Origin: Actinomadura luteofluorescens
GTDB lineage: Bacteria; Actinomycetota; Actinomycetes; Streptosporangiales; Streptosporangiaceae
Assembly: GCF_013409365.1 (NCBI RefSeq)
Contig: NZ_JACCBA010000001.1
Span: 124,001-188,000, forward strand
Direction: 5' to 3'
Length of the DNA stretch: 64,000 nucleotides
The notes below the pieces were generated by a model that did no database searches, was not told the DNA's origin, and saw only the letters and a program-made list of their open reading frames with translations. The position numbers and the translations under genes are program-made. Positions within the stretch are counted from its first letter, which is position 1; every line of letters starts with the position of its first letter. This document shows positions 10,459-24,670 of this stretch, one piece after another.

Positions 10459-11454
10459 TCAGCCGCCGATCGCCGACATGGGCCGGGCGGGCTGGAGGAA
10501 CGACGGGTCGTCGATGCCGTGCCCGGCGCGCTTGGTCCGTACGGCCGCGCGCCAGCGGTCGGCCAGTTCGGCGTCGGCGGCGCCGGCGCGCATCGCGTCC
10601 CGCAGGTTGGACTCCTCGGTGGCGAACAGGCAGTTGCGGACCTGCCCGTCGGCGGTGAGCCGCACCCGGTCGCAGGCGCCGCAGAACGGCCGGGTCACCG
10701 AGCCGATCACGCCGACCGTCTCGGGGCCGCCGTCGACCAGGAACGACTCGGCGGGAGCGCTGCCCCGCTCGTGCCCGTGATCGGGCACGAGGTCGAACTC
10801 GGCGGACAGCCGGTCCAGGATCTCGTCCGCGGTGATCATGTTCTCGCGGGTCCAGCCGTGCTGGGCGTCCAGCGGCATCTGCTCGATGAACCGCAGCCGG
10901 TAGCCGTGCTCCAGGCAGTAGCGCAGCAGCGGGACGGCCTCGTGGTCGTTGACCCCGCGCATCAGCACCGTGTTGATCTTGACCGGGGCCAGCCCGGCCC
11001 GCCGCGCCGCCGCCAGCCCCTCCAGTACGTCGGCGAGCCGGTCGCGGTGCGCGAGGCGCCGGAAGGTCTCGCGGTCGAGGGTGTCGAGGGAGACGTTCAC
11101 CCGGTCGAGCCCGGCCTCGGCCAGCGGCGCGGCCAGCCGGTCGAGCCCGATCCCGTTGGTGGTCAGCGAGATCTGGGGACGCGGCGCCTGCTCCGCCGTC
11201 CGCCGCACGATGCCGGCGAGCCCGCGCCGCAGCAGCGGCTCGCCGCCGGTGTAGCGGACCTCGGTGACGCCGAGGTCGCGCACGGCGAGTCCGACCAGCC
11301 GGACGACCTCGTCGTCGGTGAGCAGTTCCGGCTTCGGCAGCCAGTCCAGCCCCTCGGGCGGCATGCAGTACGAGCAGCGCAGGTTGCACCGGTCGGTGAG
11401 GGAGACCCGCAGGTCCGTCGCGGTACGGCCGAAGGTGTCGACCAGCACGGGCAC
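10459..11454 (-). CDS. moaA: GTP 3',8-cyclase MoaA
   Basis: Radical-SAM enzyme starting molybdopterin synthesis: it converts GTP to 3',8-cyclo-GTP, which MoaC then uses. Of 331 residues, the SAM cluster motif is CNLRCSYC (C23, C27, C30). The substrate-side cluster uses C258, C261 and C275 in FCGACDRVR and RNCLF. VRYTGGEPLLR is the GGEP motif. The C-terminal GG, needed in MoaA for activity, is present as SAIGG. No moaC is adjacent. I checked the 5' region for a molybdenum-cofactor riboswitch and saw no convincing fold. Confidence 0.95.
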   Translation of the reverse strand: MPVLVDTFGRTATDLRVSLTDRCNLRCSYCMPPEGLDWLPKPELLTDDEVVRLVGLAVRDLGVTEVRYTGGEPLLRRGLAGIVRRTAEQAPRPQISLTTNGIGLDRLAAPLAEAGLDRVNVSLDTLDRETFRRLAHRDRLADVLEGLAAARRAGLAPVKINTVLMRGVNDHEAVPLLRYCLEHGYRLRFIEQMPLDAQHGWTRENMITADEILDRLSAEFDLVPDHGHERGSAPAESFLVDGGPETVGVIGSVTRPFCGACDRVRLTADGQVRNCLFATEESNLRDAMRAGAADAELADRWRAAVRTKRAGHGIDDPSFLQPARPMSAIGG

Positions 11455-12405: not shown

Positions 12406-13605
12406 TCAGCCCTTCACGCAGATGAGCTGGCGGAGGTGCGCCACGACCTCGACGAGGTCGGACTGGGCCTCGATCACCGCGTCCAGGTCCTTGTAGGCGC
12501 CGGGGATCTCGTCCACGACACCGCTGTCCTTGCGGCACTCGACGCCCCTGGTCTGCTCGACCAGGTCCTCGACGGTGAAGTGCTTGCGGGCCTTGTTGCG
12601 GCTCATCCTGCGGCCCGCCCCGTGGGAGGCGGAGTTGTAGGCGGTCTCGTTGCCGAGGCCGCGGACGATGTAGGTGCCGGTCGCCATGGAGCCCGGGATG
12701 ATCCCGAGGTCGCCGCGCCCGGCGCGGATCGCGCCCTTGCGGGTGACGAGCAGCTCGACGCCGCCGTACTCCTCCTCCGCCACGTAGTTGTGGTGGCAGG
12801 AGATGACCTCGCCCCACCTGCAGCGCTTCTCGCCGAACCGCTTGGTGACGACGTTCTGCGCGAGCGCGGTCATGACGGCGCGGTTGCGGCGCGCGTACTC
12901 CTGCGCCCAGAACAGGTCGTGGCGGTAGGCGTCCATCTTCGCGGTGCCCTTGAGGAACACCGCGAGGTCGCCGTCCGGCAGGTCCTGGTTGTGGGGCAGC
13001 TTGCGGGCGGCCTCGATGTGGTGCTCGGCCAGCTCGTTGCCGATGTTGCGCGACCCCGAGTGCAGGACGAGCCAGATCGCGCCGTCGTCGTCGGCGCACA
13101 GCTCCAGGAAGTGATTGCCGCCGCCGAGCGTGCCCATCTGCGAGCGGGCGCGGCCGTGGCGGGACCGGACCGCCGGGTGCAGGTCGTCGAAGCCCTGCCA
13201 GAAGTCGTACCAGCCGCGTTCCTTGAGGCCCGGGAGCGCGGACGGGTCGACGGCGTTCTTGTGCGAGCCGCGGCCCACCGGGATCGCCTTCTCCAGGCGG
13301 CTGCGCAGCCCGGCCAGGTCGTCCGGCATGTCCTCGACGGTGAGGGACGACTTGACGGCGGTCATGCCGCAGCCGATGTCGACGCCCACGGCCGCCGGGG
13401 ACACCGCGTCCCTCATCGCGATCACCGAGCCGACGGTGGCGCCCTTGCCGTAGTGGACGTCGGGCATCACCGCGAGGCCCTCCACCCACGGCAGGGCGGA
13501 GACGTTGCGCAGCTGGTCGAGGGCGAGGTCCTCGACGCTCTGCGGGTCGGTCCACATCCGGATCGGGACGCGTCCGCCCTTCAGGGTCTGGTACGGCATT
13601 CCCAC
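12406..13605 (-). CDS. rtcB: RNA-splicing ligase RtcB
   Basis: GTP- and Mn2+-dependent ligase joining 2',3'-cyclic phosphate or 3'-phosphate RNA ends to 5'-OH ends, used in RNA repair. Of 399 residues, the metal ligands are visible: D76 and C79 in GVDIGCGM, H165 in GGGNHFLEL, H182 in LHSGSRN and H271 in CHHNY. The guanylylated His is H328 in SHGAGRRMSR. It is slightly shorter than archaeal RtcB (about 480), as is usual in this bacterial subgroup. No archease gene is adjacent. A second ATG lies two codons into the frame. Confidence 0.93.
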   Translation of the reverse strand: MGMPYQTLKGGRVPIRMWTDPQSVEDLALDQLRNVSALPWVEGLAVMPDVHYGKGATVGSVIAMRDAVSPAAVGVDIGCGMTAVKSSLTVEDMPDDLAGLRSRLEKAIPVGRGSHKNAVDPSALPGLKERGWYDFWQGFDDLHPAVRSRHGRARSQMGTLGGGNHFLELCADDDGAIWLVLHSGSRNIGNELAEHHIEAARKLPHNQDLPDGDLAVFLKGTAKMDAYRHDLFWAQEYARRNRAVMTALAQNVVTKRFGEKRCRWGEVISCHHNYVAEEEYGGVELLVTRKGAIRAGRGDLGIIPGSMATGTYIVRGLGNETAYNSASHGAGRRMSRNKARKHFTVEDLVEQTRGVECRKDSGVVDEIPGAYKDLDAVIEAQSDLVEVVAHLRQLICVKG

Positions 13606-13647: not shown

Positions 13648-15411
13648 TCACCCCTCCCGGTTCAACCGGTTTTCGCCCTGCCGGCGCTCGGTGAGGCCGA
13701 GCCTGTCGAGGTGGCGCAGCAGGGCGACGGCGACGTCGCGGCCGGTCCCGAGGGCGTCGCCGGCCTGCGCGGGCGTGAACGGCTGCGGCAGCCCCGACAG
13801 GACGCGCAGCGCCTCCCGGTCGGCGCCCGGGAGCAGCACGAGACCGTCGTCGATCCGCAGGACGGCGCCCGCGCGTTCGGCGCCGGCGAGGGTGTCGCCG
13901 GTGAGGCCCAGCTCTTCGAGGCGCCCGGCGCTGGGCGGCACGAACGGGGCGTCGGCGAGGTCGGCGCGGAGCCGCTCCACGGCCGCGGCCCAGGGCGGAG
14001 GCGGCGTCGCGGCGACCGCCGTCGGCGCGGGCTCGGCGGCCGGTGCCGGGGCGGGGCCGGCGGCCGGGCCGTAGACGCGTCCCGCGTCCAGGCGCAGCGG
14101 CGGCCGGACGAGCGCGGCGACGAGCTCCCGGGACGGCAGGCCGAGGCGGAGCCGGACCGCCTCCAAAGGGATCCCGGGGGCGCTCGGGCTCGCGGCGGCG
14201 TGCCGGGACGTCTCCTCGGCGAGCCGCTCGAACAGCGACCGCCAGTGCGCCGGGTCGGCGACCCACTCGCCGTTCAGGGCGACGGCGCCGGCCGGGGGCG
14301 CGCAGCCCATGAGCGACAGCTCAGAACGGCGGAGCACGCCATGCCGCCGGAGCACCACGGCGCCGTCCGGGCGGTCCGGCCAGGTCGCCAGCTCCCGGGC
14401 TCGGGCGGCACCCGCGCCACGTCGCACGAGGGTCGGCGGCCGGACGTCCAGGACGCTCACCCCGGCGATCGAGCGGCGCTCGGGGTCGCGCAGGAGCCCG
14501 ATGTCGCCGAGGTGGAGGGCGAGCCGGGTGTTGAGGGTCAGGCGGGCCGTGTCGGGGCCGAGGGGCCGCAGCCCGACCGCGACGGCGGCCGACCCGATGT
14601 GCAGCGTCATCCGCCGCGCGAGCCTGCCGGACGCTTCGCCGAAGCGGGTCCGGACGTCGACGGAGGTGGTGTGCGTCCAGGCGCCCGGGGTGACCAGGGC
14701 CATGCCGGCCTCCACGCGGCCCGCGTCGCGCAGCGTCAGCACGACGCGGGAGACCCCGCCGACCGAGTCGCGGGGCTCGTCGGCGCAGCCGATCGTCCGG
14801 ACGCGGACCCGCTCGCCCGCTGGCATGAGGAGCAGCTCGTCCCCGACGGCGACCGTCCCGGCGGCGAGGGTGCCGGCGATGACGGTCTGCCGCCCGGCGG
14901 TGAACGCCCGGTCGGCCCACAGCCGCACCGGCGCTGCCGGGTCGGGCACGGGCAGCCGGCCGGCGAGGCGGTCGAGCGCGGCGGCCAGCTCGGCCGTCCC
15001 GGCGCCGGTCTCGGCGCTCACCGCGACGGCCTCCGCGCCGCGCAGCGCGGTCCCGGCCAGCCGCTCGCGGATCTGGCGGAGCGCGGGCTTGGGATCGGCG
15101 GCGTCGGCCTTGGTGACGGCGAGGACGCCGAAGCGGACGCCGAGCGCACCAAGGGCGTCCAGATGCTCGCGCGTCTGCGGCATCCAGCCCTCGTCGGCGG
15201 CGACGGCGAGCAGGACCGCGGACGCGGGCGCCGCGACGGCGAGCATGTCCGGGACGGACCGCTCGTTCCCCGGGGCGTCGACGAACGCGACGCGCCGGCC
15301 CGAGGGCAGCTCCGTCCAGGCGCCCGTCTCACCGGGCCGCCTGCCCGTGAGGGCGCGCACGAGCGCCGACTTGCCGTGCCCACCGTGACCGGCGGTGGTG
15401 ACGACGTGCAT
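13648..15411 (-). CDS. selB: Selenocysteine-specific elongation factor SelB with an altered GTPase domain
   Basis: By overall fold this delivers Sec-tRNA to UGA codons read with a SECIS hairpin. At 587 residues it keeps all parts: G domain, two beta-barrels, and C-terminal winged helices that bind SECIS RNA. Two features depart from the family. Between G23 and D45 the switch I region is about 13 residues shorter than in E. coli SelB as I recall it, and no G2 threonine is recognisable. The G3 motif reads DAPGNE (45-50), with Asn in place of the His of DVPGHE. The P-loop is GHGGHGKS rather than GHVDHGKS, and TKAD (100-103) is intact. No frameshift explains this. ATG 15411 begins MHVVTTAGHGG. 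GTP hydrolysis is probably impaired or changed. Confidence 0.82.
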   Translation of the reverse strand: MHVVTTAGHGGHGKSALVRALTGRRPGETGAWTELPSGRRVAFVDAPGNERSVPDMLAVAAPASAVLLAVAADEGWMPQTREHLDALGALGVRFGVLAVTKADAADPKPALRQIRERLAGTALRGAEAVAVSAETGAGTAELAAALDRLAGRLPVPDPAAPVRLWADRAFTAGRQTVIAGTLAAGTVAVGDELLLMPAGERVRVRTIGCADEPRDSVGGVSRVVLTLRDAGRVEAGMALVTPGAWTHTTSVDVRTRFGEASGRLARRMTLHIGSAAVAVGLRPLGPDTARLTLNTRLALHLGDIGLLRDPERRSIAGVSVLDVRPPTLVRRGAGAARARELATWPDRPDGAVVLRRHGVLRRSELSLMGCAPPAGAVALNGEWVADPAHWRSLFERLAEETSRHAAASPSAPGIPLEAVRLRLGLPSRELVAALVRPPLRLDAGRVYGPAAGPAPAPAAEPAPTAVAATPPPPWAAAVERLRADLADAPFVPPSAGRLEELGLTGDTLAGAERAGAVLRIDDGLVLLPGADREALRVLSGLPQPFTPAQAGDALGTGRDVAVALLRHLDRLGLTERRQGENRLNREG

Positions 15412-15634: not shown

Positions 15635-15686
15635 ACTACATGCCGCGCGCCGGAGATCCGGCGACCGGCCGATGCGGGAGGTTCGC

Positions 15687-17150
15687 ATGACCGGCGCCCC
15701 GGCGGCTCGCAGGACAGGCGCCCCGGCGGCGGGCGGGGCCGGTGCCCCGGCGGCGCCCGGAGCCGGCGCCCCGGCCGGCCGGCCCACCGGCCCCACCCTG
15801 CTCGCGCTCGCCGTCGCCGGGATGGTCGTGTCGGTGCAGCAGACGCTCGTGCTGCCGCTGCTGCCGCAGCTCATGGTCCGGTTCGACGCCCCCATCACGG
15901 ACGTGACGTGGGTGTTCACCGCGTCCCTGCTGGCCGGCGCCGTCGCCACCCCGCTGCTGACGCGGTTCGGCGACATGTACGGCAAGAAGCGGATGATCCT
16001 GCTCGCCCTCGCGCTGCTGCTGGCCGGCTCGGTGGTGTGCGCGGTGTCCGGCACGCTGCCGGTGCTCATCGCCGGGCGCGCCCTGCAGGGCGTGTCCGCG
16101 GCGATGATCCCGCTCGCCATCGGCATGATCCGCGACACGTTCCCGGCCGAACGGGTCACCACGGCGATCGGCATCGTCAGCGCGACCATGGGCGTCGGCG
16201 GCAGCGCCGGCATGATCGTGACCGGGCTGATCGCCGCCCGCACCGGCAGCCACCACCCGGTGTTCTGGATCGCCGCCGCGCTGGCGGCGGCCGGGCTGGT
16301 GCTGGTCGCCGCGACGGCGCGCGACGTCGGCGTCCGCGCCGGCGGGCGGCCGGACCTGCCGGGCGCCGCCCTGCTCGCCGGCTGGCTGGTCTGCCTGCTG
16401 CTCGGCATCAGCCAGGGCAACGCGTGGGGCTGGACGTCCGGCGGGGTCCTCGCCCTGTTCGGCGCCGCGGCCGCGCTGTGCGCGGTCTGGGTGGCGGTCG
16501 AGCTGCGGGTCCGCGCGCCGCTGGTGCGGCTGGGCCTGCTGGTCGGCCCCCGGTCGCTGTCGGCCAACGTCGTCTCGGCGCTGCTCGGCTTCTCGATGTT
16601 CGCCGCGTTCACGCTCATCGCCGGCTTCGTCCAGGCGCGGCCGGAGGAGGTCGGCTACGGACTCGGCGGCTCGGTGCTGGACGTCGGCCTCTACATGCTG
16701 CCGAGCACCGTGACGATGCTGCTGTTCTCGGCGATGGCCGGGCGCCTCGCGGCCCGGCTCGGCCCGGCCTACACGCTCGCGATCGGGTCGGCGTTCGCCG
16801 GGCTGTGCTACGCGTGGCTCGCGGTGTCGAACTCGCACGTGTACGACATGCTCGCGTTCAGCGCCATCCAGGGGATCGGGTTCGGGATAGCCTACGCCGC
16901 GCTCGGCACCCTCGCCGTCCGGCACGTCCCGATGGACCAGAGCGGGATCGCCAGCGGCATCAACTCGCTCGTCCGCACCACGGGCGGCAGCGTCGCGGGC
17001 GCCGTCACGGCGTCGATCCTGGCCGGACGGGCCGCGGGCGCCGGCGTCCCCTCCCTCGGCGCCTACGAGCTGTGCTTCTGGGTCGTCTCCGCGGGGGCGG
17101 CGCTGGCCGCCCTCATCGCCGTCGCGCACGCCCTGCGCCACCCCGGGTAG
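15687..17150 (+). CDS. MFS drug-efflux-type transporter
   Basis: A 487-residue integral membrane protein of the 14-TM DHA2 class. After a 40-residue Ala/Gly/Pro-rich tail, TM1 begins near LLALAVAGMVVSVQQTLVLP. RFGDMYGKKRMIL is the family motif A. LIAGRALQGVSAAMIPLAIG corresponds to the TM4-TM5 loop. The N-terminal tail holds four copies of GAPA, and the DNA beneath it is itself repetitive. ATG 15687 has GGGAGG 6 nt upstream. The substrate is unknown. The motif order supports export, probably proton-coupled. Confidence 0.85.
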   Translation: MTGAPAARRTGAPAAGGAGAPAAPGAGAPAGRPTGPTLLALAVAGMVVSVQQTLVLPLLPQLMVRFDAPITDVTWVFTASLLAGAVATPLLTRFGDMYGKKRMILLALALLLAGSVVCAVSGTLPVLIAGRALQGVSAAMIPLAIGMIRDTFPAERVTTAIGIVSATMGVGGSAGMIVTGLIAARTGSHHPVFWIAAALAAAGLVLVAATARDVGVRAGGRPDLPGAALLAGWLVCLLLGISQGNAWGWTSGGVLALFGAAAALCAVWVAVELRVRAPLVRLGLLVGPRSLSANVVSALLGFSMFAAFTLIAGFVQARPEEVGYGLGGSVLDVGLYMLPSTVTMLLFSAMAGRLAARLGPAYTLAIGSAFAGLCYAWLAVSNSHVYDMLAFSAIQGIGFGIAYAALGTLAVRHVPMDQSGIASGINSLVRTTGGSVAGAVTASILAGRAAGAGVPSLGAYELCFWVVSAGAALAALIAVAHALRHPG

Positions 17151-17284: not shown

Positions 17285-19165
17285 ATGGGCGCCTACGCGG
17301 CCGCGTACGAACGCAGCATCGCCGATCCGACCCGCTTCTGGGGGCTGGCGGCACGGGACGTGCGGTGGCTCGTACCGCCGGACCGGGTGCTGGACGACGG
17401 GGCGCCGCCCTTCTACCGGTGGTTCACCGGCGGCGAGCTCAACACCTGCGACAACGCGCTGGACCGGCACGTCGAGGAGGGCCGCGGCGAGCAGGCCGCG
17501 CTGATCTACGACAGCCCCGTCACCGGGACCGTGCGGACCTACACCTTCCGGGAGCTGACCGGCCTCGTCGCGCGGTTCGCCGGGGCGCTGCGCGCGCAGG
17601 GCGTCGACCGCGGCGACCGCGTGGTCATCTACCTGCCGATGGTGCCCGAGGCGGTCATCGCGATGCTGGCGTGCGCGCGGCTCGGCGCCGTGCACTCGGT
17701 GGTCTTCGGCGGGTTCGCGGCGCGGGAGCTGGCCGTGCGCATCGACGACGCCCGCCCGAAGGCGGTCGTGTCGGCGTCCTGCGGCATCGAGGCGGGCCGG
17801 GTCGTCCCCTACAAGCCGCTGCTGGACCGGGCGCTGGAACTGGCCCGGCACAAGGTCGAGCGGTGCGTGATCCGGCAGCGCGAGCAGCTGCACGCCGACC
17901 TCGTTCGGCCGCGGGACGTGGAGTGGGACGAGGCGGTCGCGGCCGCCGAGCCCGCCGGGTGCGTGCCCGTCGCCGCCACCGACCCGCTCTACATCCTCTA
18001 CACCTCCGGCACGACCGGGCGGCCGAAGGGCGTCGTGCGCGACAACGGCGGGCACGCGGTGGCGCTGCGCTGGTCGATGGAGAACGTGTTCGGCGTGGGG
18101 CAGGGCGACGTCTTCTGGGCGGCCTCCGACGTCGGCTGGGTCGTCGGCCACTCCTACATCGTGTACGCGCCGCTGCTCACCGGCTGCACCACCGTGCTGT
18201 ACGAGGGCAAGCCGGTCGGGACGCCGGACGCGGGCGCGTTCTGGCGCGTCGCCGCGCAGCACCGGGTGAAGGCGCTGTTCACCGCGCCGACCGCGATCCG
18301 GGCGATCAAGAAGGAGGACCCCGAGGGCGCGCTGCTCGCCGGGCACGACCTGTCCGCCCTGGACACGCTGTTCCTCGCCGGGGAGCGCCTCGACCCCGAC
18401 ACCTACCGGTGGGCCTCGCGCGTCCTGGACCGCCCGGTGATCGACCACTGGTGGCAGACCGAGACCGGCTGGCCGATCGTGGCGAACCTGCGCGGGCTGG
18501 AGCCGATGCCGGTCAAGGCGGGGTCGCCGTCGGTGCCGGTGCCGGGGTACGACGTGCGGGTCCTCGGCCCGGACGGCTCCCCCGTCCCGCCGGGCGCCGA
18601 CGGCGACATCGCGATCCGGCTGCCGCTGCCGCCGGGCACGCTGCCCACGCTCTGGCAGGACGACGAGCGCTTCGTCGAGTCGTACCTGACGAGGTTCCCC
18701 GGCCACTACCTGACCGGCGACGGCGGGCACGTCGACGAGGACGGCTACGTCTGGGTGATGGGCCGCACCGACGACGTGATCAACGTGGCCGGGCACCGGC
18801 TGTCCACGGGGACGATGGAGGAGGTCGTCTCGTCCCATCCGGCCGTGGCCGAATGCGCCGTGATCGGCGTCCACGACCCGCTCAAGGGGCAGGTGCCGCG
18901 GGGGCTGGTCGTGCTCAAGAGCGGGATCCTGGCCGAGCCCGGCGAGGTGTGCGCCGAGCTGGTCGCGATGGTGCGCGAGCAGATCGGGCCCGTCGCCGCG
19001 CTCAAGGAGATCTCCGTCGTGCCCGCGCTGCCGAAGACGCGGTCGGGCAAGATCCTGCGGGGCGTGATGCGGGGCATCGCCGACGGGCAGGAGGTGTCCG
19101 TCCCGTCCACGATCGAGGACCCGGACGTGCTGGACGGCCTGCGCCCCGTCCTGCGCCGGGAATGA
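17285..19165 (+). CDS. prpE: Propionate--CoA ligase
   Basis: ATP-dependent synthetase making propionyl-CoA from propionate. It has 626 residues, close to PrpE length. The adenylate-forming P-loop is ILYTSGTTGRPKG. HWWQTETGWPI is the acid-discriminating motif typical of acetyl- and propionyl-CoA synthetases, and KTRSGKILRG near the C-terminus carries the acetylatable catalytic Lys. The open frame extends far upstream, but ATG 17285 has GGGAGG 6 nt before it and homologous sequence starts there. The product could feed methylmalonyl-CoA metabolism. Acetyl-CoA synthetase is the alternative, but the sequence is closer to PrpE. Confidence 0.88.
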   Translation: MGAYAAAYERSIADPTRFWGLAARDVRWLVPPDRVLDDGAPPFYRWFTGGELNTCDNALDRHVEEGRGEQAALIYDSPVTGTVRTYTFRELTGLVARFAGALRAQGVDRGDRVVIYLPMVPEAVIAMLACARLGAVHSVVFGGFAARELAVRIDDARPKAVVSASCGIEAGRVVPYKPLLDRALELARHKVERCVIRQREQLHADLVRPRDVEWDEAVAAAEPAGCVPVAATDPLYILYTSGTTGRPKGVVRDNGGHAVALRWSMENVFGVGQGDVFWAASDVGWVVGHSYIVYAPLLTGCTTVLYEGKPVGTPDAGAFWRVAAQHRVKALFTAPTAIRAIKKEDPEGALLAGHDLSALDTLFLAGERLDPDTYRWASRVLDRPVIDHWWQTETGWPIVANLRGLEPMPVKAGSPSVPVPGYDVRVLGPDGSPVPPGADGDIAIRLPLPPGTLPTLWQDDERFVESYLTRFPGHYLTGDGGHVDEDGYVWVMGRTDDVINVAGHRLSTGTMEEVVSSHPAVAECAVIGVHDPLKGQVPRGLVVLKSGILAEPGEVCAELVAMVREQIGPVAALKEISVVPALPKTRSGKILRGVMRGIADGQEVSVPSTIEDPDVLDGLRPVLRRE

Positions 19166-19194: not shown

Positions 19195-19470
19195 TCACAG
19201 GTGGCGGCCGGTCCGTTTGGGCCAGAACGCCTCCACCAGGAGGACCGCGGCCACCGCGAGGAGGACCTGGAAGAGCGCCTCCCACAGGTTCCAGCCGCCC
19301 TCGCCGAGGCCGCACAGGTGGACCAGCCCGGTTCCGCCGAACGCCGCGACGACGCCGACCGCCACCAGCAGCCACGCCGGAATGTTCTCGCGGCCCGGCA
19401 CGACGAACCTGCCCAGGACGCCGATGACGGCGCCCAGGATCACGGCGGCCACGAGCCCGCCGATGGTCAT
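19195..19470 (-). CDS. GlsB/YeaQ/YmgE family small membrane protein
   Basis: A 91-residue inner-membrane protein with three hydrophobic helices. The glycine-rich first helix, GGLVAAVILGAVIGVLGR, and the following FVVPGRENIPAW are the signature of the transglycosylase-associated (YeaQ/YmgE) family. Members are linked to general stress but have no defined activity. It is convergent with prpE, 29 bp away, and lies 78 bp downstream of selD on the same strand. Confidence 0.85.
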   Translation of the reverse strand: MTIGGLVAAVILGAVIGVLGRFVVPGRENIPAWLLVAVGVVAAFGGTGLVHLCGLGEGGWNLWEALFQVLLAVAAVLLVEAFWPKRTGRHL

Positions 19471-19548: not shown

Positions 19549-20538
19549 CTAGCGGACGACGAGGGTGCGCCGCCCTCGGCCGACGAGCTCGCCGACGACG
19601 GGCGCGCCCGGGATCTCCCCGGCGACCAGCAGCCCGCCGGAGATCTGCGCGTCGGCGAGCAGCAGCCGCTCCTCCTCGGCGATCCGGCGGAAGTCGGCGT
19701 GCGGCGACACCCACGCCAGGTTGCGGCGGGTGCCGCCCGGCACGAACCCGTCCCGCACCGCGGCGCGCGCGCCGTCGAGGTAGGGGACGGCGGAGGCGTC
19801 CACGACGGCGGTGACGCCGCTCGCCCGCGCGAGCTTGTACAGGTGGCCGAGCAGCCCGAAGCCGGAGACGTCGGTGGCGCACGCGGCGCCGTGTTCGAGC
19901 GCGGCCAGGCCCGCCGCCGCGTTCAGCTCCGTCATGGCCGCGACCGCGTGCGGGAACACCTCCCCGGTCGCCCTGTGCCGGGCGTTGAGCGCGCCGACGC
20001 CGAGCGGCTTGGTCAGCGTGAGCGGCACGCCGGCACGGCCCGCGTCCAGCCGCAGCAGCCGGTCCGGGTCGGCGGTGCCGGTGACCGCGAGGCCGTACTT
20101 CGGCTCGGGGTCCTCGATGCTGTGCCCGCCGGCGATCGCGACGCCGGCCAGGGCCGCCGTGTCCCGCCCGCCGCGCAGCACCTCGCGGGCCAGCTCGGCG
20201 GGCAGCGCGTCGGCGGGCCAGCCGAGCAGGTTCAGGGCCATCAGCGGCACGCCCCCGACCGCGTAGACGTCCGACAGCGCGTCGGCGGCGGCGATGCGGC
20301 CCCAGTCGTAGGCGTCGTCGACGACGGGGGTGAAGAAGTCGGCGGTCGAGACGACGGCCCGGCCGCCCTCGAGGCGCAGCACGGCGGCGTCGTCTCCGTC
20401 GGGGCCGCCGACGAGGAGCGCGTCGTCTCCGCCGGTGAGGCCGGCCACGACCCGCTCCAGCTCCCCTGGCGGAATCTTGCTCGAGCCGCCGCCGCGCGCG
20501 TACTGCGTCAGGCGGGCCACGGGGGCGAGTCGGGTCAC
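19549..20538 (-). CDS. selD: Selenide, water dikinase homologue (SelD) lacking the catalytic Cys
   Basis: SelD makes selenophosphate from selenide and ATP, the Se donor for Sec-tRNA. The 329-residue protein is full length with a normal PurM-like fold: DDAAVLRLEGG, STADFFTPVVDD, the AGGHSIEDPEPKYGLAVTG block and ATDVSGFGLLGHL. The N-terminus should read GGGCACKIPPGEL or similar, with catalytic Cys or Sec before the invariant Lys. Here it reads GGGSSKIPPGEL. S19 and S20 replace the Cys-x-Cys, one residue is lost, and K21 is kept. I confirmed this on the DNA; no in-frame UGA is present. It resembles eukaryotic SPS1 paralogues, which lack the Cys/Sec and make no selenophosphate. The start is GTG 20538 behind a good promoter. 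Confidence 0.85.
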   Translation of the reverse strand: MTRLAPVARLTQYARGGGSSKIPPGELERVVAGLTGGDDALLVGGPDGDDAAVLRLEGGRAVVSTADFFTPVVDDAYDWGRIAAADALSDVYAVGGVPLMALNLLGWPADALPAELAREVLRGGRDTAALAGVAIAGGHSIEDPEPKYGLAVTGTADPDRLLRLDAGRAGVPLTLTKPLGVGALNARHRATGEVFPHAVAAMTELNAAAGLAALEHGAACATDVSGFGLLGHLYKLARASGVTAVVDASAVPYLDGARAAVRDGFVPGGTRRNLAWVSPHADFRRIAEEERLLLADAQISGGLLVAGEIPGAPVVGELVGRGRRTLVVR

Positions 20539-20544
20539 CGCTGA

Positions 20545-20574
20545 ATTTAACGCACAACTACCTCAAATGATCAA
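20545..20574 (-). promoter_or_regulatory. Probable selD promoter, leaderless
   Basis: On the minus strand, TTGATC (20569-20574) and TTAAAT (20545-20550) are separated by 18 bp in an unusually AT-rich patch. The -10 box ends 6 nt before the selD GTG, so transcription should start at or next to the start codon. No ribosome-binding site precedes the GTG, in line with this. Confidence 0.5.
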
Positions 20575-20727
20575 CAAACGGACGGTACCCACCCGGTCAC
20601 CGATCGCCGACCGGTCCCCGCGACCGGCCCGGAAAACCAGCGAACCCCTTGTCCGAACCCGGTTCGGCGTGATGCGATTTCCCCCCTGCAAGTCATCACT
20701 TACTCACCACCGACCATGAGGGGCGAC

Positions 20728-22569
20728 ATGGGGATCCAGGAACAGCGGGCCGACCTCGACCGGGCCGTGGCGGGGCGGACGATCTGCACCGCCCTCGCCG
20801 CGACCGCCGCGCGGCACGGCGCCAGGCCCGCCTACTCCGACCGGACCGGCGGCGAGTGGAGCACCCTCACCTGGGCGGACACCCGGACCCGCGCGCTGGA
20901 GACGGCCGCCGGGTTCGCCGCCCTCGGCCTGGAGCCCGGCGACGTCGTCGCGCTGATGATGCCGAACCGCTCCGAGCACGTGCTGGCCGACCTCGGCGCG
21001 GTGCACGCCGGCGGCGTCCCCACCACCGTGTACGCGACGCTCGCGCCCGATCAGGTCGCGTTCGTCGCCGGCCACTGCTCGGCCAGGTACGCCGTGCTGG
21101 ACGGCGCGGACCAGCTCGGCCGCTGGCTGCCCGTCCTGGACCGCCTCCCCGGCCTCCGCAAGATCATCGTGGTGGACGCCGGCGCCTGCCCGCCCGGCGA
21201 CCGCTTCCTCACCTGGGACGCCTTCACCGAGCTCGGCCGCCGGGAGCTGGCCGCCGACCCGCTCGCGATCGACCGGCGCTGGCAGGCGGTCGGGCCCGGG
21301 GACACCGTCACCCTCCTGTACACCTCCGGCACCACCGGCGACCCCAAGGGCGTCCTGATCACGCATTCGATGGTGCTGCACGAGGCGGAGATGGTCGAGC
21401 GCAGCTCCGTCCTGCCCGAGCACCCGGCCGGCGTCTCCTACCTGCCGTTCGCGCACATCGCCGACCGCGTGCTCAGCTACTACCTGCCGGTCCGGCTCGC
21501 CTCCCACGTCCACTTCTGCCCCGACCCGGCCCAGCTGACGACGATCCTCGGCGAGGTGCGGCCGCACTCCTTCTTCGGCGTCCCGCGCGTCTGGGAGAAG
21601 ATCATGGCCGGCATCCAGGCGGTGCTGTCCGCCGAGCAGGACGAGGCGAAGAAGCGGGCGGTCTCCGCCGCCCTGGACGCCGGCCGCGCCTACGTGGCGG
21701 CGCAGGAGCACGGCGGCACCCTCACCCCGCAGATCACCGAGGCCTTCGAGCGGGCCGACCAGGCGGTCCTCACCCCCATGCGCGCCCTGCTCGGCCTGGA
21801 CCGCGTCCGCCAGGCCTCCAGCGCCGCCGCGCCGCTGCCCGTCGAGGTGGCCCGGTTCTTCGCCGGGCTCGGCCTGAAGATCTTCGACGCCTACGGGATG
21901 ACGGAGACGACCGGCGCCATCACCGCCAACCTCGCCGACTCCTTCAAGCTCGGCACCGTCGGCCGCCCCTTCCCCGGCGTCGAGCTGAAGCTCGCCGACG
22001 ACGGCGAGATCCTCGTCCGCGGCGCCACCTGCACCCCCGGCTACCTGGACCGCCCCGACGCCACCGCCGACCTCATCGACGCCGACGGCTGGGTGCACAC
22101 CGGCGACGTCGGCCGCCTGGACGGGGACGGCTTCCTCACCGTCGTCGACCGCAAGAAGGAACTGATCATCACCGCGGGCGGCGAGAACATCGCCCCCTCC
22201 CTGGTCGAGAACCGGCTCAAGGAGCACCCGCTCATCGGCCAGGCCCTGGCCTTCGGCGACCGCCGCCCCTACGTCGTCGCGCTCATCACCCTCGACGGCG
22301 AGGTCGCGCCCGTCTGGGCGGCCGCCCACGGGGTCGACACCACCGACCTCGCCGCCCTCGCCGACCACCCGCTCGTCCTGGAGGAGGTCGCCCGGGCCGT
22401 CGAGGACGCCAACGCCCGGCTCGCGCGCGTCCAGCAGGTCAAGCGGTGGCGCCTGCTCACCGCCGAGTGGACCGCCGAGAGCGAGGAGCTCACCCCGACC
22501 CTCAAGCTGAAGCGCCGCGTCGTGCACACCAAGTACGCCGCCGACATCGACGCCCTCTACACCGGCTAA
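20728..22569 (+). CDS. Long-chain acyl-CoA synthetase (FadD15-like)
   Basis: Activates fatty acids to acyl-CoA through an acyl-adenylate. Of 613 residues, the P-loop is LLYTSGTTGDPKGV. DAYGMTETTGAI is the A5 adenylate motif, and GWVHTGDVGRLDGDGF precedes the hinge with DRKKELIITAGGENIAP, the long-chain FadD linker signature. The C-terminal lysine motif appears as TPTLKLKRR. I prefer ATG 20728 over ATG 20716 because GAGGGG lies 4 nt before it. The protein appears soluble or peripheral. The gene ends only 10 bp before tRNA-Sec, so its mRNA may run into the tRNA gene. Confidence 0.9.
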   Translation: MGIQEQRADLDRAVAGRTICTALAATAARHGARPAYSDRTGGEWSTLTWADTRTRALETAAGFAALGLEPGDVVALMMPNRSEHVLADLGAVHAGGVPTTVYATLAPDQVAFVAGHCSARYAVLDGADQLGRWLPVLDRLPGLRKIIVVDAGACPPGDRFLTWDAFTELGRRELAADPLAIDRRWQAVGPGDTVTLLYTSGTTGDPKGVLITHSMVLHEAEMVERSSVLPEHPAGVSYLPFAHIADRVLSYYLPVRLASHVHFCPDPAQLTTILGEVRPHSFFGVPRVWEKIMAGIQAVLSAEQDEAKKRAVSAALDAGRAYVAAQEHGGTLTPQITEAFERADQAVLTPMRALLGLDRVRQASSAAAPLPVEVARFFAGLGLKIFDAYGMTETTGAITANLADSFKLGTVGRPFPGVELKLADDGEILVRGATCTPGYLDRPDATADLIDADGWVHTGDVGRLDGDGFLTVVDRKKELIITAGGENIAPSLVENRLKEHPLIGQALAFGDRRPYVVALITLDGEVAPVWAAAHGVDTTDLAALADHPLVLEEVARAVEDANARLARVQQVKRWRLLTAEWTAESEELTPTLKLKRRVVHTKYAADIDALYTG

Positions 22570-22579
22570 GATCACCGCC

Positions 22580-22675
22580 GGAGGCGTGTGAGCGCCTGGT
22601 GGCCTCCCCGGCCTTCAAAGCCGACGGTCCCGAGGATCTCGGGACGGCGGGTTCGATTCCCGTACGCCTCCGCCA
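22580..22675 (+). tRNA. selC: tRNA-Sec (UCA anticodon)
   Basis: The 96-nt gene encodes its own CCA end. The acceptor stem is 8 bp (GGAGGCGT with ACGCCTCC), the length expected for bacterial tRNA-Sec. The anticodon loop CTTCAAA gives UCA, which reads UGA. A long variable arm has an 8-bp stem (GTCCCGAG with CTCGGGAC), as in class II tRNAs. The T arm is CGGG-TTCGATT-CCCG. The discriminator base is G before CCA. All parts needed for SerRS charging and SelA or SelB recognition look intact, in contrast to the altered SelB and SelD. Confidence 0.95.
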
Positions 22676-23537: not shown

Positions 23538-23790
23538 CTGTGTTTCGAAGTCCCGGCCCACTTCGCTCGCCTTGCGGCTGTGTTTCAACAGTCCCGGCCC
23601 ACTTCGCTCGCCTGGCGGCTGTGTTTTCACAGTCCCGGCCCACTTCGCTCGCCTGGCGGCTCGCTGCGTGACCTGGCCTGGGCGAACGCGGCATCGCTTC
23701 GCGATCTGGCCGGTGCCGCTCGCCTCCGGCTTCGCGGCACCGGCCAGGTCACGCGTTCGCGCGCGTGGCCGGGGCCACTTCGGGACGGGC
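23538..23790 (+). repeat. Dispersed structured intergenic repeat, copy B (three modules)
   Basis: Three tandem modules lie at 23538-23577, 23578-23618 and 23619-23659. Each is about 40 bp: CTGTGTTT, a short variable linker, AGTCCCGGCCCACTTCGCTC, then GCCTTGCGG or GCCTGGCGG. An arm to about 23790 contains GCGTGACCTGGCC, ATCGCTTCGCGAT, a 12-bp stem GGCCGGTGCCGC/GCGGCACCGGCC, and GGCCAGGTCACGC. Module 3 opens with a perfect hairpin CTGTG-TTTT-CACAG. It occupies most of the 320-bp gap between the TRIC gene and fdhD. The rest of the gap (23791-23857) shows nothing I can name. Copy A is its inverted counterpart. Confidence 0.88.
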
Positions 23791-23857
23791 CCTGGCCCCT
23801 CGGTGGCCGGGGCCTGGGCTTCGTTTGGGGCGGGTTTCCGGGGTACCGTCAACGGTC

Positions 23858-24670
23858 ATGGGGCGGATCACCGTGCGCAGGCCCGTGCTGCGGCTGAGCG
23901 CGTCCGGGCCGCCGGTGCGCCGGCCCGACACGCTCGCGGCCGAGGAGCCGCTGGAGATCCGCGTCGCCGGCAAACCGCTCACGATCACGATGCGCACGCC
24001 CGGGCACGACTTCGACCTGGTCGCCGGGTTCCTGGCGGCCGAGGGCGTGGTCGGCGGGGCCGGCGAGATCGCGGCGATGCGGTACTGCGCCGACACCGAG
24101 GAGCAGAACACCCTCGACGTGCTCCTGTCCCCCGGCGTGCCGCCGCCGGACGACTCCATGACGCGGGCGTTCACCACCACCAGCGCCTGCGGGGTGTGCG
24201 GCAAATCGAGCATCGAGGCGCTGCGCGCCGACCGGCCCTACGAGGTGGCGGCCGACCCGGTGCGGCTCACCCCGGCCGTGCTGGCGGCCATGCCGGAGCG
24301 GCTGCGCGAGGCGCAGCGCGTGTTCGACCGGACGGGCGGCCTGCACGCCGCCGGGCTGTTCGACGCCGAAGGCGAACTCCTGGCCGTGCGCGAGGACGTC
24401 GGCCGCCACAACGCCGTCGACAAGGTGATCGGGTGGGCCCTGCGGGAAGAGCGGCTGCCGCTGGCCGGAACGGTCCTCATGGTGAGCGGGCGCGCGTCGT
24501 TCGAGCTGACGCAGAAGGCGATGACGGCCGGCGTCCCGGTCCTGGCGGCGGTGTCGGCGCCGTCCTCCCTGGCGGTGGACCTCGCCGAGGACGCGGGGAT
24601 GACGCTCGTCGGCTTCCTGCGCGGCGAGACCATGAACGTCTACGCCGGGGCGGAGCGTATCGCCCTGTGA
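23858..24670 (+). CDS. fdhD: Formate dehydrogenase sulfurtransferase FdhD
   Basis: Carries sulfur from a cysteine desulfurase to the Mo-bisPGD cofactor of formate dehydrogenase, which is needed for activity. Of 270 residues, the reactive loop is [17 protein letters not shown] with C111 and C114. [20 protein letters not shown] and [13 protein letters not shown] are further conserved blocks. The open frame extends upstream into the repeat element, but sequence conservation starts at [12 protein letters not shown] (ATG 23858). With moaA and mobA it implies a formate dehydrogenase elsewhere in the genome. Confidence 0.93.

Follow-up and report, generated by a model that had tools for sequence, protein, structure and literature searches.

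A SelD paralog without an active-site cysteine, probably retained as a pseudo-SelD in Actinomadura

What might a selenophosphate synthetase be kept for once its catalytic cysteine is gone? The question is raised by a gene in a 64,000-nucleotide stretch of the Actinomadura luteofluorescens genome (hereinafter the window), namely the reverse-strand ORF at 19549..20538, which starts with GTG and codes for a 329-aa protein with the N-terminus VTRLAPVARLTQYARGGGSSKIPPGEL. The protein matches the SelD equivalog model TIGR00476 over its full length (341 bits; cut-off 125) and aligns over residues 8-306 with E. coli SelD (PDB 3u0o); thiL and other AIRS relatives were rejected as its identity, with scores far under the SelD score. 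Rereading of the ORF and its translation bore out the original prediction of a GGG-SSK loop with neither Cys nor Sec, at the coordinates it gave: the codons for residues 16-21 (20476..20493, reverse strand) read GGGSSK at the place of the canonical GGGCACK. The E. coli C17-G-C19-K20 site is thus represented by Ser-Ser-Lys, one residue fewer, with no Cys and no in-frame TGA, and the Cys or Sec that marks an active enzyme at E. coli position 17 is absent. The further claim that the Lys and all other SelD blocks are kept holds for Lys20, Asp51, Asp68, Asp91, and Asp227 and fails at Asn87, which is replaced by Asp, and at Thr229, which reads as Ser in the window sequence. A sequencing error at the SSK site is ruled out by its presence, with differing codons, in four genomes, viz., the window genome (G000), G055 (A. 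mexicana), G056, and G059, and by GGGGACK and GGG-SCK loops in near relatives. The four Asp residues, Asn87, and the Cys-X-X-Lys motif are given as essential in SelD in the account of PMC4210487. Because the C17S variant of E. coli SelD is reported to be inactive in catalysis, its ATPase down to about 12% (PMC3956282), the window protein is, by analogy, unlikely to make selenophosphate.

The original prediction had proposed a search of the genome for a second selD with Cys or Sec, and one is indeed present. The window genome (9.62 Mb, one contig) codes for a further SelD (C1:6810419-6811330) with the loop GGGCACK, situated downstream of selA and selB, which rules out the window copy as the sole SelD of this genome. 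An adjoining formate dehydrogenase gene has its frame broken by an in-frame UGA codon in the context NQARV-TGA-HSST, which we take to be the Sec site expected of this enzyme. We termed the window copy and its locus A and the other selA-selB-selD locus B. SelD-A and SelD-B of this genome are 72% identical, and on the tree SelD-B is a separate, deeper locus relative to A, not a recent duplicate. The only strong tRNA-Sec match of the genome lies in the window (22580..22671, forward strand); two strong tRNA-Sec genes each are found in G009, G012, G025, G041, G043, and G060.

Among the 65 Actinomadura genomes searched (with 149 relatives in a wider search), SelD-A is found in 60 (61 loci, two of them in G064), and the 48 loci labelled B come from 46 genomes, A and B occurring together in 46; two of these 48 loci (G041, G060) branch deeper, on a branch of their own. 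We surveyed the active-site loop at 121 loci. The first Cys is kept in all 48 loci labelled B (46 CACK, two CASK) and in all 72 loci from elsewhere, which comprise 20 from non-Actinomadura genomes and 52 of 80 database loci, the other 28 having been left out as they carry the names Actinomadura or Spirillospora. In SelD-A it is lost from 21 of the 60 genomes, i.e., 17 of the 46 with B and four of the five without the selenocysteine trait, and is kept in all eight genomes with A as the sole Sec locus, as well as in G051, where the A copy is accompanied by a class-C SelD. The Cys-less loops are diverse and include GGGGACK (five genomes), GGG-SSK (four), GGGGAST (three), GGG-SCK (two; the first Cys is the one missing), GGGGAGK (two), GGGGAGR (two), and GGGSASK, AAGGAGK, and GGGGGGK (one each). 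On the tree the state of the first Cys requires at least eight changes as a parsimony minimum. In the clade of the window copy the nearest relatives of the GGG-SSK copies have GGGGACK and GGG-SCK loops, and hence the first Cys seems to have been lost first. Cys17 is retained in SelD-A of 29 of the 46 B-bearing genomes, including 13 with a CACK or CTCK loop. SelD-A is not essential throughout the genus, since no SelD is found in G007 at E <= 1e-20 and a class-C SelD replaces A in four genomes. A plasmid search was uninformative, its best match being 71.2% identical and from other genera.

The degeneration extends beyond the loop. We scored 93 near-invariant columns, defined on 69 SelD sequences presumed active, and in SelD-A Lys20 changes twice, Asp51 twice, Asp68 five times, Asn87 ten times, Asp91 six times, and Asp227 six times, a mean of 5.2 for these six catalytic columns vs 0.93 for the 87 others (p 4e-5). 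The same six columns show no changes in SelD-B, and the Cys17 column changes nine times in A and never in B; Thr229, which was not among the catalytic columns chosen, changes ten times in A. Nine copies have lost most metal and Lys sites, D51, D91, or D227 is gone in some of the SSK and SCK copies, and G006 and G019 have Cys17 but have lost Lys20, Asp68, Asp91, and Asp227. In 23 of the 60 species carrying it SelD-A looks inactive, as judged from its residues, and across these 23 copies 62 of the 93 near-invariant columns are unchanged. The 28 A loci that have Cys17 beside another SelD show changes in none of 140 catalytic cells (the per-cell Fisher tests ignore kinship) and may therefore still code for enzymes. 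The TIGR00476 model is blind to the loss of the active site, as the GAGR copy of G010 still scores 253.5 bits.

The Cys-less copies are nonetheless under purifying selection. Using Nei-Gojobori counts, we obtained dN/dS values of 0.20, 0.26, and 0.27 for the SSK pairs, 0.32 for G010-G016, 0.29 for G003-G010, 0.36 for G011-G054, and 0.31 for G018-G027, i.e., 0.20-0.36 in seven of seven pairs, not all of which are independent. A neutral simulation, built on simple base frequencies and free of indels, centers on 1.15-1.23, and for each pair none of its 300 runs was as low as the observed value. Comparison values are 0.19-0.24 for B copies, 0.26 for single Sec-serving A copies, and 0.36 for the four Sec-less copies. 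The Cys-less copies are thus constrained nearly as enzymes are, with partial relaxation in the most degenerate ones.

A second gene of the A locus codes for a SelB paralog of 587 aa (SelB-A; 13648..15411, reverse strand), about 50% identical to SelB-B of the window genome. Its P-loop reads GHGGHGKSA, switch I (G2) is deleted, and the G3 motif DVPGH has become DAPGN, so that it does not present the G1, G2, and G3 motifs of a translational GTPase; a SelB-wing_3 match is retained. With TIGR00475 it reaches 169.6 bits against a cut-off of 242.25, which does not discriminate here because the best stretch of the canonical SelB-B of the same genome, at 241.3 bits, also falls just short. A SelB relative at E <= 1e-70 is present in all 65 genomes, and the state of its motifs follows the service of the locus. 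G1-G3 are intact in all 12 genomes in which the A locus serves Sec (eight with SelD-A, four with a class-C SelD), none of which has lost the switch motifs, and switch I is deleted or garbled in 53 of 53 genomes comprising the 46 with B, the six Sec-less ones, and G051 (the motifs of G046 and G061 having been read from matching named loci). SelB-B has G1-G3 intact at 39 of 40 loci, the remaining one having been mis-extracted. Ten genomes have a TGA inside the SelB match, seven of them with ORFs of 560-600 aa in which the stop is near the end; of the other three, the SelB of G061 was not extracted whole, and G036 and G042, like G007, have a SelB-A that is cut short or frameshifted. In the SSK genomes dN/dS is 0.28 for SelB-A vs 0.32 for SelB-B, and all 14 pairs, seven of SelD-A and seven of SelB-A, lie well under the neutral expectation, with 0/300 simulations as low in any.

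In the SelB tree all degenerate SelB-A sequences fall on one side of a branch (support 87), with the Sec-less rows among the B-bearing ones. Neither a constraint that keeps the B-bearing degenerate rows together (p-AU 0.45) nor one that groups every degenerate row except the four Sec-less ones (p-AU 0.49) is rejected. On a five-protein tree the state of the locus, intact or degenerate, changes at least three times, and the four Cys-less Sec-less species fall beside G018 and G027, two B-bearing genomes (support 97), and outside the 45-row B-bearing clade. In view of the unrejected constraints and the changes on the five-protein tree, we do not claim a single origin of degeneration; the degenerations of SelD-A and SelB-A each seem to have arisen more than once. 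A protein record labelled Mycobacterium tuberculosis (P0192) is 83% identical to SelB-A of the window and is probably mislabelled or contaminated.

Six genomes are without the selenocysteine trait. SelA above the cut-off is lacking in G003, G007, G010, G016, G045, and G058; it is likewise lacking in G035, G036, and G044, which we took as draft gaps because B and tRNA-Sec are present. The best tRNA-Sec matches in the six Sec-less genomes reach 44-50.5 bits vs at least 66.7 bits in the other 59; although the 50.5 bits of G003 exceed the Rfam gathering score, these weak matches were identified as tRNA-Met in G003 and as tRNA-Ser in all six. SelB is present in the six only in degenerate form, and neither SelU nor YqeB was found above the cut-off in any of the 65 Actinomadura genomes. 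A Cys-less SelD is kept in four of the six, viz., G003 (A. atramentaria), G010 (A. rubteroloni), G058 (A. flavalba), and G016; SelD-A of G045 (A. viridis) has the loop GGGCAGK. SelB-A lies at the SelD-A locus, across the PrpE gene, in three of these four genomes and nearby in the fourth (G058). Being kept at the same locus, it is the first candidate for a partner of SelD-A.

Taken together, these observations suggest that SelD-A is probably a retained bacterial pseudo-SelD, in which catalysis has been lost and the protein kept for another role. SelD-A would be the SelD of the older selenocysteine locus of Actinomadura; in the eight single-locus species the canonical ortholog is still found at this position, close to selA and selB. 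The B locus could, in most species, supply selenophosphate and so free SelD-A, which would then lose its catalytic residues stepwise in many lineages; in the window lineage the tree points to the loss of Cys17 first, then of one loop residue, and then of the second Cys. As purifying selection keeps the fold and the remaining sequence, the role would be one for which the protein is required and selenophosphate synthesis is not. The most likely mechanism would be that of a non-catalytic binding partner or scaffold, with the AIRS-type fold holding a protein or ligand. This step, taken alone, is a tentative proposal, favored because the ATP and metal ligands are dispensable in several lineages.

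A more specific but rather doubtful extension is that the old Sec locus now serves, by exaptation, as a selenium-independent module of two proteins, SelD and a pseudo-SelB, that would bind RNA or the translation apparatus and not catalyze. SelD would in that case be a pseudoenzyme already or one in the making, and the pseudo-SelB, having lost switch I, would keep domains II-III and the winged-helix end. Both proteins are kept in about 50 Actinomadura species, five of them without the selenocysteine trait.

Slow decay is an unlikely account, in which SelD-A and SelB-A would be redundant leftovers whose frames stay open through high G+C, with its few stops, under no selection. It would explain why active-site loss is seen where copy B makes the gene redundant or the Sec trait is gone, and is consistent with the three broken SelB-A genes, the absence of SelD from G007, and the slightly raised dN/dS of the most degenerate lineages. 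It is at odds with the dN/dS values far under neutral in 14 of 14 pairs, with the unchanged two-thirds of the near-invariant columns in the 23 inactive-looking copies, and with the five to six times more frequent change of the catalytic columns than of other near-invariant ones, which pure decay should hit alike.

SelD dimerizes, and SelD-A might thus regulate selenium metabolism as a pseudo-subunit that pairs with SelD-B through subunit exchange or titration. We consider this quite improbable: A and B do coexist in 46 genomes, but it cannot be the general role because the four Sec-less genomes keep a Cys-less SelD without SelD-B, selA, or tRNA-Sec. Least probable of all is a residual catalysis, either slow Cys-free selenophosphate synthesis or phosphorylation of another substrate via the ATP site, for which the residual ATPase of the E. 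coli C17S variant and the Lys20 and Asp residues of the window copy might speak, and against which stand the Asp at the essential Asn87 of that copy and the loss of Asp and Lys sites across the SSK, SCK, and nine most depleted copies, such that an ATP-driven activity is not the shared thing under selection.

Retention as a pseudo-SelD, the reading that we prefer, has its closest known counterpart in metazoan SPS1 (SEPHS1; Drosophila SPS1-Arg, human SPS1-Thr). As described in PMC4561486 and PMC2500217, SPS1 resembles SelD-A in having neither Cys nor Sec while an active paralog exists elsewhere in the genome, in its recurrent independent origin, and in its persistence where selenoproteins are lost, as in selenoprotein-less insects. 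SelD-A differs in being bacterial, in that its active counterpart is a separate, deeper locus, in the degenerate SelB close by, and in the additional loss of the Asp residues and the Lys in several lineages. The bacterial parallel to SPS1 that the original prediction had raised as a possibility therefore gains support, at the level of sequence comparison, from the second, Cys-bearing SelD, from purifying selection across species, and from retention in the four Sec-less genomes. The likeness does not extend to ancestry: the window protein scores 250 bits with E. coli SelD vs 81.6 bits with human SPS1, and these scores, together with the 72% identity to SelD-B, argue on pairwise comparison against descent from metazoan SPS2 duplications.

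Two further systems invite comparison. Crenarchaeal SelD-like proteins also occur in organisms without selenium traits; however, as presented in PMC4210487, they keep the catalytic Cys and other functional residues and are distant (26% identity in the example), and we did not adopt them as the class of SelD-A. The archaeal aSelBL proteins described in PMC3037878 share with SelB-A a disrupted GTPase domain and occurrence in organisms without selenocysteine but are without the C-terminal extension needed for SECIS recognition, whereas SelB-A keeps its SelB-wing_3 match; we liken the two by features and not by common history. In the survey of 223 prokaryotic genomes by Mariotti et al. (2015; PMC4561486), every SelD is reported to have Sec or Cys, and the copies with neither described there are metazoan. 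In open-licence literature, Actinomadura appears with SelD or SelB only in PMC5029168, and titles and abstracts yielded no bacterial case of such SelD copies or of SelB pseudoenzymes, which is weak evidence of novelty.

The findings also recast a published orphan SelD. In A. atramentaria (G003) Cys17, Asp68, Asp91, and Asp227 of SelD are all gone. Orphan SelD is reportedly treated also by Haft and Self in 2008. A. atramentaria DSM 43919 is among the orphan-SelD organisms of Peng et al. (2016; PMC5029168), who regard an additional selenium trait as likely for some of these organisms and leave room for a pseudogene or for a role outside selenium metabolism. It fits that category, as its genome has SelD and no known selenium trait, and differs in the loss of these four residues, which makes a selenophosphate-based new trait unlikely there. 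A gene named selD is thus no proof of selenium use. Redundancy, loss of catalysis, and retention after the loss of selenocysteine would have followed one another several times within one bacterial genus, and Actinomadura offers bacteria in which to test what the SelD fold does without catalysis.

The neighborhood of SelD-A in the window includes a conserved, promoter-like element, TTGATC-N18-TTAAAT (20545..20574, reverse strand), 6 nt 5' of the GTG, a spacing that would give a leaderless mRNA; TTGATC[AG] is found upstream of SelD at 59 of the 61 A loci, and a sigma-70 consensus scan gave nothing above threshold. A small ORF of 91 aa without Pfam or NCBIfam matches (19195..19470) follows 79 nt downstream on the same strand. 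It is seen by tblastn at many A loci and not at those of G003, G010, and G016, which make up three of the four Sec-less genomes with a Cys-less SelD, and on that ground it was rejected as a general partner of SelD-A. The forward-strand genes are those for an MFS transporter (15672..17150), between SelB-A and the syntenic PrpE, a propionate/acetate-CoA ligase-like protein (17306..19165), for a FadD11-like acyl-CoA ligase divergent from SelD-A (20716..22569), and for the formate dehydrogenase accessory protein FdhD (23765..24670). On the reverse strand, the ORF adjoining SelB-A (12406-13605) is presumably related to RtcB RNA ligase, and another (10459-11454) codes for what we take to be a MoaA-like radical SAM protein, which perhaps serves the molybdoenzyme formate dehydrogenase, as FdhD would.

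Two observations concern the genomes at large. The two A loci of G064 lie near both ends of its contig C1 (5600-6589 and 9488754-9489740), on the same strand, and reflect either an assembly that repeats its ends or a duplicated terminus. The third SelD class is a distant one, sharing 53-55% identity with SelD-B, and is represented by L143 (G011:C16:44500-54500), which brings the SelD types of G011 to three, and by L149 (G092:C5:20500-30500); both have an in-frame TGA at the catalytic position (HGAG-TGA-ACK) and are likely Sec-containing SelD proteins.
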